NCBI GenBank assembly: GCA_009885085.1
Contig: VFLK01000025.1
Coordinates: 1-34,733, forward strand
Source of the DNA: Minisyncoccota bacterium
GTDB lineage: Bacteria > Patescibacteriota > Microgenomatia > UBA1400 > PJMF01
Direction of reading: 5' to 3'
Length of the DNA: 34,733 nt
Below, piece by piece: positions 2,402-25,593 of this stretch. The notes below the pieces were generated by a model, which saw only the letters and a list, made by a program, of their open reading frames with translations, was not told the origin of the DNA and searched no databases. Position 1 is the stretch's first letter, and every line of letters begins with the position of its first letter. Made by a program: the position numbers and the translations under genes.

Positions 2402-3718
2402 TTAAAATTTATTAACGATTTCAATAATTTTATTAGCATTTTCTAAAGTAATATTTTGATGAGTTGGTAAATTCAAAATTTCACCTGCAAGTTTTTCCGC
2501 ATTCTGAGCTGATCCCTGTTTATATGCGGAACTACAATTAATTTTTCCGCAGTCAACTGCATTACGATACCACCGGTCAGATAAATATATGCCATTATCT
2601 TTCATAAATTTAATTAATTTATCAACATTCGTGGTTCTAATTGAAAATCTCAAATTACTCCCAGTTTCGATATCTTTTTTTGTATTTACAATTTTAATAT
2701 TAGAATTAGAAATCTTGTCTAAATAATAATTTGCGATCTTTTTGCGGTGAATTAATTGTTGATCAAGTTTTATAAAAGATCTGTTAGTAAGTTCTGCATA
2801 TTCAGGACTCATTAAAGATACTTTTGATGTTTTTGAAATTGCTGGCGATGCAATTAAACCAATGGATCTAGATATTTTTAAAATGATTTTTCCAATAAAT
2901 ATATCGTGAGTTTTCCTTCCTAAAAAAGTAATTACTGGATAGATCATGTCTCTATATATAATATTTTTAGAAAGTTTCAGTAAATTATTCGTTATGAAAT
3001 TTTCAATTTTTGCTCTTTGGTCAACTGTTAAATTTTTGAACACTACGGCTCCGCCAGAAACAGCGTCGATTATTTTGTCTCTACCAAATGAAAAGATAAT
3101 AGCGTCAGCATTCATTCCCAAATAATTTCCATTAAAATCTACTCCACCAATTCCTTGTGCCAAATCCTCAATCAGAATTAAATTATTTTCTTTACACCAT
3201 TTTTTAATGTTAATAATATCTGCAGGAATTCCTAAACTATGTTGGACCAAAACTGCTTTTGAATCAAGATTTTTTTGGAACACTTTATTTAGAGTTTCAA
3301 CAGTCATGTTAGTTGAATTATTATCAATATCAACGTAAACAGGAGTCGCTCCTGATCTTTTAATTCCCTCTTCTACTGCGAAGCAAGTGAAAGCTTGCGT
3401 TAATACTTTGCCCTTTGCAGTCACATCTTTGTGCCCCAGGGCAGCTTCTCTGGCTTCGCTATGGCCCAGGCCAGCTTCTCTTCCTACGGAATTCACCTTC
3501 TTAACCTTCTCGTCACTTGAAAGTAAAATCCTCAATGAAAATTCAATTGCGTCTCTTCCTTTGTAAAACAAATATGAATTTCCATCATAAGTTTTATCTA
3601 AGTATTTATGTAACTTATCGATACTTCCAGTATCACCTTTTGATACTGTTTGTTTTAATGCTAACATCACAAAATTAAATGAGTAATTAGAACCTAAGCT
3701 GTTAAAAATCGATTTCAT
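2402..3718 (-). CDS. DegT/DnrJ/EryC1/StrS-family PLP-dependent aminotransferase
   Basis: 438 aa; 'QAFTCFAVEEGIKRSGATPVYVDID', 'LIEDLAQGIGG', 'IIFSFGRDKIIDAVSGGAVVF' (PLP-lysine region), C-terminal 'LNLPTHQNIT'. Contains an atypical insert, see findings. Confidence 0.88.
   Translation of the reverse strand: MKSIFNSLGSNYSFNFVMLALKQTVSKGDTGSIDKLHKYLDKTYDGNSYLFYKGRDAIEFSLRILLSSDEKVKKVNSVGREAGLGHSEAREAALGHKDVTAKGKVLTQAFTCFAVEEGIKRSGATPVYVDIDNNSTNMTVETLNKVFQKNLDSKAVLVQHSLGIPADIINIKKWCKENNLILIEDLAQGIGGVDFNGNYLGMNADAIIFSFGRDKIIDAVSGGAVVFKNLTVDQRAKIENFITNNLLKLSKNIIYRDMIYPVITFLGRKTHDIFIGKIILKISRSIGLIASPAISKTSKVSLMSPEYAELTNRSFIKLDQQLIHRKKIANYYLDKISNSNIKIVNTKKDIETGSNLRFSIRTTNVDKLIKFMKDNGIYLSDRWYRNAVDCGKINCSSAYKQGSAQNAEKLAGEILNLPTHQNITLENANKIIEIVNKF
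3430..3489 (-). repeat. GC-rich tandem repeat, 2 x 30 bp, in frame inside the aminotransferase gene; each unit carries a short palindrome
   Basis: Unit 1 tgtgccccagggcagcttctctggcttcgc (3430-3459), unit 2 tatggcccaggccagcttctcttcctacgg (3460-3489), 23/30 identical; 38/60 G+C. Encodes GREAGLGHSE/AREAALGHKD-like 10-aa repeats. Confidence 0.85.
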
Positions 3719-13362: not shown

Positions 13363-14634
13363 ATGAAAGTACTTATTTTGATTTTTAACTTTATTCTCTT
13401 TTTTTATTTTGTCATGCCAGCACATGCTTCACCAATTATCAACGAAGTTTATCCAAGACCAAATACTAACGAAAAAGAATGGTTAGAACTTTTCAATAAC
13501 TCAGAAGCAAACGTTGATCTTGCCGGATGGATGTTAATGGATGAACTCACTACTCCTTCGATTATTTTTCAATTTACCCCAAGTTTTGTAGATGAATGGA
13601 AAATGAAACCGTTCGAGTTTTTAATAATAGAATTTGAAACTAGTAAATTAAATAATACTGCCGATGGCGTAAAATTAATAAATAATATTGGCGATGTAAT
13701 TGATCAATTTGAATATATTAATTCGGAGCTTGGAATGAGCTTTGCAATAATATCAAACTCTAATAACAATCAAGATTCTATTATTATGTCAGACCCAAGT
13801 AAAGGATATTCTAATACGGCCCCCGCTAGTTCACCTCAAGGATCTGTTAATTCACCTCCAGATCCAACAAGCTCACCGACTCCAACAAGCTCGCCAGTTC
13901 CAACATCAACAAGTTCGCCAGCACCAACAAGCTCGCCAGTTCCAACATCAACAAGTTCGCCAACTTCAACAAGCTCTTCTAATACTGATAGTGAAACCTA
14001 TCCATCGCTTTCACTATATGAAGTAATGTCATGCCCAGAAGCCAATACTCAAGAATGGATAAAAATAAGAAATACTAATAGTGAAGCTGTTAATCTAAAT
14101 AAATGGATTTTAAAAGATTTTGCAGATAATCAGATACTATTCACTTCATCAGAAATAATACCCCAGCAATCATTTTTAATTATTTATCTAAAAAATAATA
14201 TTCTCAACAATTCCGGTGATACTATAACTTTAATTGATCCAAATGGAAAAGTAATTGATAAACTCGAAATGGGTGAATGCACCCCAGGCATATCAATTCT
14301 TGCTTCAGCCTCTTCAAATGAAGATTTAGGTATAACAACAGAAACATCATATTTAGAATCAAGTTTTAAAGATAAAGAATTACTTAAAAATAACCAAGAA
14401 ATAGTTGTAAATGACATTATCGGACAAAAAATTATAAGTTTAAAAAAAATTAACAAATTGCTGCCAATCAGTAATGCTGATAAATCCGCTACTGCTAAAA
14501 TAGATAATTACATCTCAAAAAAAGTGGTAGTTAGAAATAATAGTTTGCCAAAAACAGCTGTAATAAGTGTTATAATTGGAGGAGCAATGCTAGCAAGTTC
14601 TGGATTATTCTTTATAAAAAATGAAAAAATTTAA
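13363..14634 (+). CDS. Surface protein with two lamin-tail-like domains, Ser/Thr/Pro linker and LPKTA-TM-Lys C-terminus
   Basis: 'PIINEVYPRPNTNEKEWLELFNNSEANVDLAGWMLMDE' and 'LSLYEVMSCPEANTQEWIKIRNTNSEAVNLNKWILKDF' are LTD-like; PTSSPVPTSTSSPA linker; C-term 'LPKTAVISVIIGGAMLASSGLFFIKNEKI'. Confidence 0.82.
   Translation: MKVLILIFNFILFFYFVMPAHASPIINEVYPRPNTNEKEWLELFNNSEANVDLAGWMLMDELTTPSIIFQFTPSFVDEWKMKPFEFLIIEFETSKLNNTADGVKLINNIGDVIDQFEYINSELGMSFAIISNSNNNQDSIIMSDPSKGYSNTAPASSPQGSVNSPPDPTSSPTPTSSPVPTSTSSPAPTSSPVPTSTSSPTSTSSSNTDSETYPSLSLYEVMSCPEANTQEWIKIRNTNSEAVNLNKWILKDFADNQILFTSSEIIPQQSFLIIYLKNNILNNSGDTITLIDPNGKVIDKLEMGECTPGISILASASSNEDLGITTETSYLESSFKDKELLKNNQEIVVNDIIGQKIISLKKINKLLPISNADKSATAKIDNYISKKVVVRNNSLPKTAVISVIIGGAMLASSGLFFIKNEKI
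13889..13972 (+). repeat. 42-bp tandem repeat coding for the Ser/Thr/Pro linker
   Basis: gctcgccagttccaacatcaacaagttcgcca occurs at 13889 and again at 13931 (period 42). Confidence 0.85.
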
Positions 14635-21839: not shown

Positions 21840-22385
21840 CTATTTTGTTTCTTTCTCAGCTTTTTTCTTTGTTGCGGTTGCTTTCTTAGCTGGAGCTTTC
21901 TTTGCTTCTACTTTTTTTTCATCAGCTTTCTTAGCGACAACCTTTTTTGCATCAACTTTTTTAGCAACTGCTTTTTTTGCTACTTTTTCGGCTGATGTTT
22001 TCTCAGCTTTCAAAGTTCCCATTCTTGATGGCATTTTAGTTAAAGAAAGTTTTGATAACTTTGTGTTATCTCCTCTTCTTAAACCAGCATCTTCAATAGT
22101 TGTAAAGCCAGAAGTCTTATCAGAAAACTCAGGAGCAATTCTATCTACTAAAGAATTGACAACATCTCTTCTGCCAAAAAATTTGTGTAAGAGTCTTCTT
22201 GTTGCAATAGTATCAACTTTTGCATTCGAAATGATCTTATCAGCAATTTTCTTAATTTCCTTAGCTTTGCTTTCTGTAGTCACGATGTGACCATGCTCAA
22301 CTAAAGAACGTACTAGACCTTTAAACAATGCTTTTCTAGCTTTGCTATCTCTATTAAAATGCTTAATTTTTACTCTATGTCTCAT
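21840..22385 (-). CDS. rplQ: 50S ribosomal protein L17 (bL17), Lys/Ala-rich C-terminal tail
   Basis: 'MRHRVKIKHFNRDSKARKALFKGLVRSLVEHGHIVTTESKAKEIKKIADKII'; tail 'AEKVAKKAVAKKVDAKKVVAKKADEKKVEAKKAPAKKATATKKK'. Confidence 0.95.
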   Translation of the reverse strand: MRHRVKIKHFNRDSKARKALFKGLVRSLVEHGHIVTTESKAKEIKKIADKIISNAKVDTIATRRLLHKFFGRRDVVNSLVDRIAPEFSDKTSGFTTIEDAGLRRGDNTKLSKLSLTKMPSRMGTLKAEKTSAEKVAKKAVAKKVDAKKVVAKKADEKKVEAKKAPAKKATATKKKAEKETK

Positions 22386-25474: not shown

Positions 25475-25480
25475 TTATAC
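25475..25480 (-). promoter_or_regulatory. Candidate -10 box (TATAAT) of an internal promoter before infA
   Basis: Minus strand ...CTGGGGTATAATACTAAG... within a 198-nt gap between map and infA; no convincing -35. Confidence 0.4.
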
Positions 25481-25593
25481 CCCAGATTACCCTCTCTGGC
25501 TACCTCCACAACTAAAATTGACCTCTTTTGTTGCACAATTTCTTATGCAAACCCTTGCGGTGCACTTTCTTCGCGCCCCACACCAGATAGAAA

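Follow-up and report, generated by a model that had tools for sequence, protein, structure and literature searches.

An in-frame insert in a DegT aminotransferase gene

The locus raises the question of how a DegT-family aminotransferase gene that otherwise has only 29% G+C came to contain, in frame, a 78-bp stretch with 56% G+C. The gene lies in the 34,733-nucleotide stretch of DNA that was analysed whole (hereafter, the window), which belongs to a Pacebacteria-type CPR bacterium with a genome (G000) of 979 kb that is 99.8% complete. An earlier note on this DNA had described two tandem 30-bp units of 63% G+C and a total of about 28 extra residues, and it had interpreted them as a mobile palindromic element analogous to the Rickettsia palindromic elements (RPEs). 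The GC-rich, in-frame stretch is present as described, and its inner part (Table 1) matches covariance model R1 with 59.6 bits (E 6.4e-12).

Table 1. Coordinates of the DegT gene, its insert and a possible further copy of the element in the window.
Feature	Positions	Strand	Basis
DegT/DnrJ/EryC1/StrS-family aminotransferase, 438 aa	2402..3718	-	ORF; Pfam PF01041, E 1.3e-38
Whole in-frame insert, 78 bp = 26 codons	3433..3510	-	Orthologue protein and DNA alignments
Inner (later) element copy, 39 bp, AGAAGGTGAATTCCGTAGGAAGAGAAGCTGGCCTGGGCC	3463..3501	-	Full-length R1 match
Outer (earlier) copy, 5' nine bases, AGAAGGTTA	3502..3510	-	Inner copy separates them from the remainder
Outer copy, remaining 30 bases	3433..3462	-	R1 28.6 bits, E 5.8e-5
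Possible decayed copy upstream of infA	25479..25527	-	R1 14.6 bits, E 0.08; weak alone

The nearest orthologues, found in three congeneric genomes, are 49-77% identical to this protein across the downstream 330-343 residues. The insert is missing from the congeners G001, G002 and G003 as well as from more distant relatives, and relative to the nearest orthologue (G003) it amounts to a net 78 bp, so that the number of extra residues is 26 rather than about 28. Its exact ends were fixed via a 39-bp unit. When the two separated parts of the outer copy are joined, they give a 39-nt unit, AGAAGGTTAATAGCGAAGCCAGAGAAGCTGCCCTGGGGC, which the inner unit interrupts at GGTnA^AT. There are thus two repeat units, as had been proposed, but they are nested 39-bp units and not a simple tandem; the apparent 30-bp period arises because 30 bases of the outer unit are left over after the inner one, and the figure of 63% G+C holds for this 30-nt part only. 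The site of the insert corresponds to a loop that is variable among orthologues, and an AlphaFold model of the protein computed without an alignment had a pLDDT of 37.

Two other repeats were noticed in the window: a 42-bp tandem repeat at 13858-13976, which encodes a Pro/Thr/Ser-rich linker in a secreted-looking protein of 423 aa (13363-14634), and a 15/30/45-bp tandem repeat at 21879-21980 in the Lys/Ala-rich tail of a ribosomal protein L17-like protein (21840-22385).

Dispersed copies and empty sites

A search with a 19-base core, allowing up to three mismatches, found 19 matches in G000, 26 in G003, 36 in G001 and none in G002, all of the same genus, while the reversed pattern that served as control had no match in any of the four genomes. 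With the insert as query, a BLAST-type search of G000 found an in-frame copy in gatB (98% over 41 bp), one copy directly after a tRNA gene and others that were intergenic; the inner DegT copy differs from the gatB copy (G000:C38:66239) by one mismatch in 39. In the rest of the family, the single clear case was in G006, where a Mur ligase gene contains the whole element. The dispersed copies that the earlier note predicted were therefore found, and so was the presence or absence among orthologues for which it had suggested an alignment.

Across 15 orthologue DNA comparisons, with host genes identified by Pfam, single copies were clean 39-bp insertions. The gatB copy adds 39 bp and exactly 13 residues in G000 only, as the DegT insert adds 26 residues in G000 only. 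A 39-bp insertion is found in ileS of G001, and at a second site of this gene G003 has 78 bp where G001 retains a decayed remnant; pheS contains one unit (39 bp) in G001 and two nested units (78 bp) in G003. Insertions of 39 or 78 bp occur in lysS, tgt, yqeY, a UvrD-type helicase gene and the gene for the PFOR beta subunit in one species and are missing in others, and pnp is also among the genes with a clean 39-bp insertion. No target duplication longer than one ambiguous A was detected in the 15 alignments; the absence of a duplicated flank also rules out the idea that the 39 bp consist of 30 bp plus a 9-bp target duplication. At the clearest empty sites (gatB, lysS and tgt), the target does not contain the two bases with which the element begins, and an A lies directly 3' of the insertion in 135 of 151 copies. 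The sites that were checked tolerate indels: at the turn concerned, further GatB orthologues have additional residues of unrelated sequence (L120, L126).

Insertion of the element into itself is not confined to nesting of the DegT type, as one copy lies within the hairpin-1 loop of another (L315). Exact 39-bp tandem arrays occur in Mariprofundus ferrooxydans PV-1 and in G535. Units spaced 31 or 40 bp apart are found in intergenic copies only. In the cultivated strain PV-1 (NZ_DS022294.1), a protein of 458 aa resembling NDP-sugar epimerases/dehydratases contains, close to the N terminus, exact tandem copies (DKVNGEAREGALG) of which three are complete and one is partial (L239). Insertion into hairpin loops in general was seen in few cases (7% vs 0.8% expected by chance). 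At three loci (L140, L164, L196), the element lies within the hairpin loop of other palindromic repeats that resemble CGTC-type REPs (GTCATTCCTGCG^...AGGCAGGAATCCAG). A second, longer dispersed repeat of the genus (CTCGCATGCACTAGGCGGGTGCTTCGCTTCGTTTCAC) often carries the element (L013, L014, L016, L017, L077, L079, L083, L294), and its element-free version adjoins an IS200-type tnpA in G001 (L294).

The possible decayed copy upstream of infA is followed by the same sequence (GTATAATACTAA.TTCTGACTCCATTTTA) as a clearer copy in G003 (L068). In nine intergenic copies of the genus (L015, L019, L025, L056, L068, L070, L085, L091, L092), TATAAT spans the 3' junction of the element (CTGGGG-TATAAT), and several of these loci look common to two or three species. 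Such copies possibly reflect either insertion into promoters or co-option as promoters.

A conserved, covarying fold

The consensus of 80 sequences is ACAAGGTGAATnGCGAAGCnAGAGARGnTnnCCTGGGnn. In insert numbering (1-39), the structure of the element, ((........((((...))))......))(((....))), consists of two hairpins and a 2-bp closing helix. The column pairs that covaried most strongly among 150 gapless copies were 12:20, 31:38, 2:28 and 30:39. In the 80 distinct copies, 96.0% of the paired cells were paired vs 76.6 +/- 1.1% after shuffling, and double-change cells numbered 128 vs 35.5 +/- 5.5; controls in which the structure was slid along the sequence reached at most 43% paired. The compensatory stem difference first noticed between the two DegT units proved to be general: at pair 31:38, 46 of the 80 distinct copies have C-G, 23 have G-C and seven have another standard pair. 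The covariation of the stems also agrees with the earlier interpretation. Bases 1 and 2 pair with bases 28 and 29 (base 1 with 29) and base 39 pairs with base 30, so that the two ends of the insert abut. In intergenic copies, G.T mismatches exceed A.C mismatches by 34 to 8, which indicates that it is the sense strand that folds, either as RNA or as single-stranded DNA. By energy, single units fold no better than shuffles, and support for the fold thus comes from covariation alone; protein or tertiary contacts may be needed. When 10 element loci of about 3 kb were compared with Rfam, only tRNA genes passed the gathering score.

Reading frame, orientation and selection

Five of the six reading frames of the element are open. 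In ORFs of at least 200 aa (n = 65), 56 copies are read in the sense frame that encodes KVNGEAREGALG (the KVN frame), six in a second sense frame and three in antisense, which departs from equal use of five configurations with a binomial p of about 3e-30, although the copies are not wholly independent of one another. Between co-directional genes, in contrast, the intergenic copies are divided 17 sense to 17 antisense; 17 more were found at convergent sites and five at divergent sites. The bias inside genes together with the even division between them implies that insertion is strand-neutral and that the bias comes from selection at the protein level. The second sense frame is used by a minority, namely ArsP, CobS and a histidine phosphatase in Sulfurovum/Helicobacteraceae MAGs, and in those few proteins it is genuine. 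Among eight antisense ORFs tested, there was one Pfam match, to a transposase domain that does not contain the element.

Coding and intergenic copies also differ at the first variable pair of the hairpin, 8:16 (12:20 in insert numbering). Of 49 distinct coding copies, 31 have G-C here (GGC, Gly), whereas 35 of 51 distinct intergenic copies have T-A (TGC, Cys), with both sides changing together. This difference is consistent with selection on the protein. No chain with the element peptide was found in the PDB.

Distribution across bacteria

An exact 25-base pattern searched in the GTDB representatives matched more than 116 stretches. The carriers included Sulfurimonas, Sulfurovum and Sulfuricurvum; Mariprofundus (including PV-1 and EBB-1) and Ghiorsea; Chromatiales, Oleiphilaceae, Seongchinamella, Methylobacter and Nitrosomonadales; BMS3Abin06, Lentisphaerales, Bacteriovorax, Myxococcales and a Deltaproteobacterium; and Komeili-, Nomura-, Kaiser-, Pace-, Parcu- and Gracilibacteria. 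Gammaproteobacteria, Nitrospirae and several CPR phyla are among the groups with the element, which occurs in at least 10 phyla-level groups in all. With R1, 36 of 61 Zetaproteobacteria in the sampled set were positive, with up to 42 copies and exact 39-bp tandem arrays, as were five of 150 genomes of one Campylobacterota order and two of 290 sampled Patescibacteria. This patchy distribution points to horizontal spread, and we infer that the Zetaproteobacteria are the likeliest reservoir. Phage and plasmid collections gave no real match; one viral contig had a single copy. The element is present in type I restriction hsdR genes of a Nitrospirae and a Nitrosomonadales genome, at apparently the same site, as well as in further hsdR genes and in drmD genes of DISARM systems (hsdR/drmD loci L188, L191, L194, L226, L146, L178). 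Given its presence in these genes, we infer that transferred defence genes may be one vehicle for the element.

Nature and movement of the element

We consider it highly probable that the DegT insert arose from a small, non-autonomous 39-bp mobile DNA element, one copy of which is nested in another. Copies of the element are dispersed and are not the same in sister species, insertion is clean (a net 39 bp, usually 5' of an A) and can take place within the element, and the single-strand fold is conserved and covaries. An ordinary lineage-specific loop whose internal similarity arose by chance would fit the position of the insert in a loop variable among orthologues, but it is refuted by near-identical copies in unrelated genes, in intergenic regions and in other phyla, and we assign it practically no chance; the finding that would have overturned the earlier interpretation, namely no further copies and a conserved loop, did not materialise. 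It is also improbable that the peptide or hairpin has been retained for its usefulness (as a protein loop, for mRNA stability or as a promoter) and is not a tolerated selfish repeat. The nine TATAAT-junction copies, several of them at apparently shared loci, suggest that some copies were co-opted. Against usefulness, the genes that harbour copies are unrelated to each other, such copies are mostly confined to one species, and some have decayed to remnants (ileS in G001). Mitochondrial byp elements and the bypassing of T4 gene 60 are known cases in which the ribosome skips part of a message. Were the element likewise bypassed, or cut from the mRNA, with the fold joining its ends, the peptide would never be made; the precise union of both insert ends by the fold and the presence of the element in many essential enzymes without visible harm agree with this. 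Such skipping or removal would need no open frame, yet in-gene copies hold one frame, coding copies favour a Gly codon where intergenic copies have Cys, and the 31- and 40-bp spacings are confined to intergenic copies; we regard this reading, too, as improbable.

How the tolerated mobile element moves is less clear. In the world of IS200/IS605 and REP sequences, the element would be a REP-like hairpin that owes its movement to a Y1 (HUH) transposase, either resident or lost, and the pairing of bases 1-2 with 28-29 would be that of guide and cleavage site. The short, guide-like, covarying pairing beside the hairpin foot, the sense-strand fold and the lack of target duplication are as expected, and a Y1 transposase was found in G001, which has the most copies in its genus. 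No Y1 transposase was found in six other carriers (G000, G003, G006, G532, G535, which has 24 copies, and G544), and in the 61 Zetaproteobacteria its presence was not associated with the element (29 of the 36 genomes with the element have a Y1 transposase, as do 20 of the 25 without it), nor did any copy lie within about 1.5 kb of the Y1 gene at 20 loci. This absence and non-association rule out a resident Y1 transposase as the universal mover. Moreover, IS200-type elements retain a fixed 5' target motif, whereas the clearest empty sites lack the two bases with which the insert begins. We thus regard this explanation as unlikely, though by no means negligible. Spread at the RNA level, with a folded RNA entering transcripts and a reverse transcriptase returning the copy to DNA, would accommodate the sense-strand fold with its G.T pairs and the abutting ends. 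Reverse transcriptase is missing, however, from most carriers tested, including PV-1 (no RVT_1 in G000, G003, G006, G511, G532, G535, G537 and G544), so that a resident one is ruled out as the universal mover, and the 17:17 division of intergenic copies is unexpected for insertion into transcripts; we give this route little credence. No mobilising enzyme was identified among the two kinds examined, Y1 and reverse transcriptase.

Because Y1 and reverse transcriptase are absent or not associated, we favour mobilisation in trans by an enzyme yet to be identified. Less certainly, we infer that the 39-bp element may move as a folded single strand (single-stranded DNA or RNA), processed by an unidentified or transient enzyme, and that it may have reached new phyla along with transferred genes. 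Insertion would be nearly random in strand and frame, and selection is inferred to purge from genes the copies that lie in another frame or orientation. An element that enters an NAY codon behind its first base would give NAC-KVNGEAREGALG-YAY and add 13 residues, without loss of frame since 39 is divisible by 3 and the sense strand is open, and the protein would survive where the site is a tolerant loop. We infer that the element behaves mainly as a selfish repeat, which host proteins tolerate in the form of a surface loop, and that it has no part in enzyme function; exposure of the loop and translation of the peptide have not been shown.

Relation to known palindromic repeats

RPEs were reportedly described by Ogata and colleagues in 2000 and 2002. 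They and the Wolbachia palindromic elements resemble the 39-bp element in being palindromic, dispersed and in frame in unrelated housekeeping genes, with no known transposase and with a tolerated peptide. RPEs are about 150 bp long (PMC10969869), and some of them, RPE-4 and RPE-6, are counted among the short CGTC REPs (PMC3733652). The present element is shorter, its consensus is unrelated, it inserts within itself at a fixed place, and it occurs in at least 10 phyla-level groups and not in one order. Homology with RPEs was not found, as the consensus lacks the terminal CGTC tag of RPE-4 and RPE-6; the long RPE families were outside the direct comparison. The likeness to RPEs that had been proposed therefore holds as an analogy, but by sequence the element is not an RPE (it has no terminal CGTC or GTAG) and it extends beyond the Rickettsiales. 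The earlier interpretation was supported in kind.

GTAG/CGTC REPs are short hairpins with a preference for unidirectional or convergent intergenic sites, G.T stem pairs and some copies in ORFs, and CGTC REPs are also found without a transposase (PMC3733652). The element shares the short hairpins, the unidirectional and convergent sites, the G.T stem pairs and the intragenic copies, but it lacks the terminal tag and forms two hairpins with a closing helix, not one stem. In contrast to a REPtron, the 80-sequence consensus has no unpaired GTAG end and none of the 20 Y1 (RAYT) loci is flanked by the element. That some copies lie within the loops of CGTC-like REPs further indicates two separate kinds of repeat. 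PARCEL repeats, in turn, are amphipathic domains of surface proteins that have a tandem unit of 25 aa (75 nt) and a conserved Trp (PMC2996958). They are likewise palindromic coding repeats distributed horizontally among diverse microbes, whereas the element adds 13 aa, for the most part to cytosolic enzymes, and has no Trp in the frame used. The palindromic elements derived from IS200/IS605 (PATE) and MITEs are similarly small, non-autonomous and hairpin-bearing; the element differs in having no terminal inverted repeats, since its ends pair with internal bases 28-30 and not with each other, no visible target duplication and no associated Y1 transposase. It is thus a family separate from the RPEs and from the CGTC/GTAG REPs, though RPE-like in behaviour. 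Neither the DNA strings of the element nor its peptide was found in open-access text, a search that left out supplements and most subscription papers and that proves no novelty.

Rickettsia and Wolbachia are the best-known bacteria in which selfish repeats lie in frame within essential genes. The family described here extends the phenomenon to distant phyla, including streamlined CPR bacteria and the cultivable Mariprofundus. In aminoacyl-tRNA synthetases, GatB, PNPase, HsdR and other proteins, nature has in effect carried out many insertion experiments, and with the orientation-neutral intergenic copies as an internal control, a bias of insertion can be told apart from selection on the protein. 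The family may also represent a new class of mobile element of the smallest size, a 39-nt folded strand with juxtaposed ends that crosses phyla by unknown machinery, neither a resident Y1 transposase nor a reverse transcriptase, and repeatedly adds a 13-residue loop to essential enzymes; this we put forward only tentatively. What moves a 39-nt hairpin without a visible transposase is a question that can be answered.
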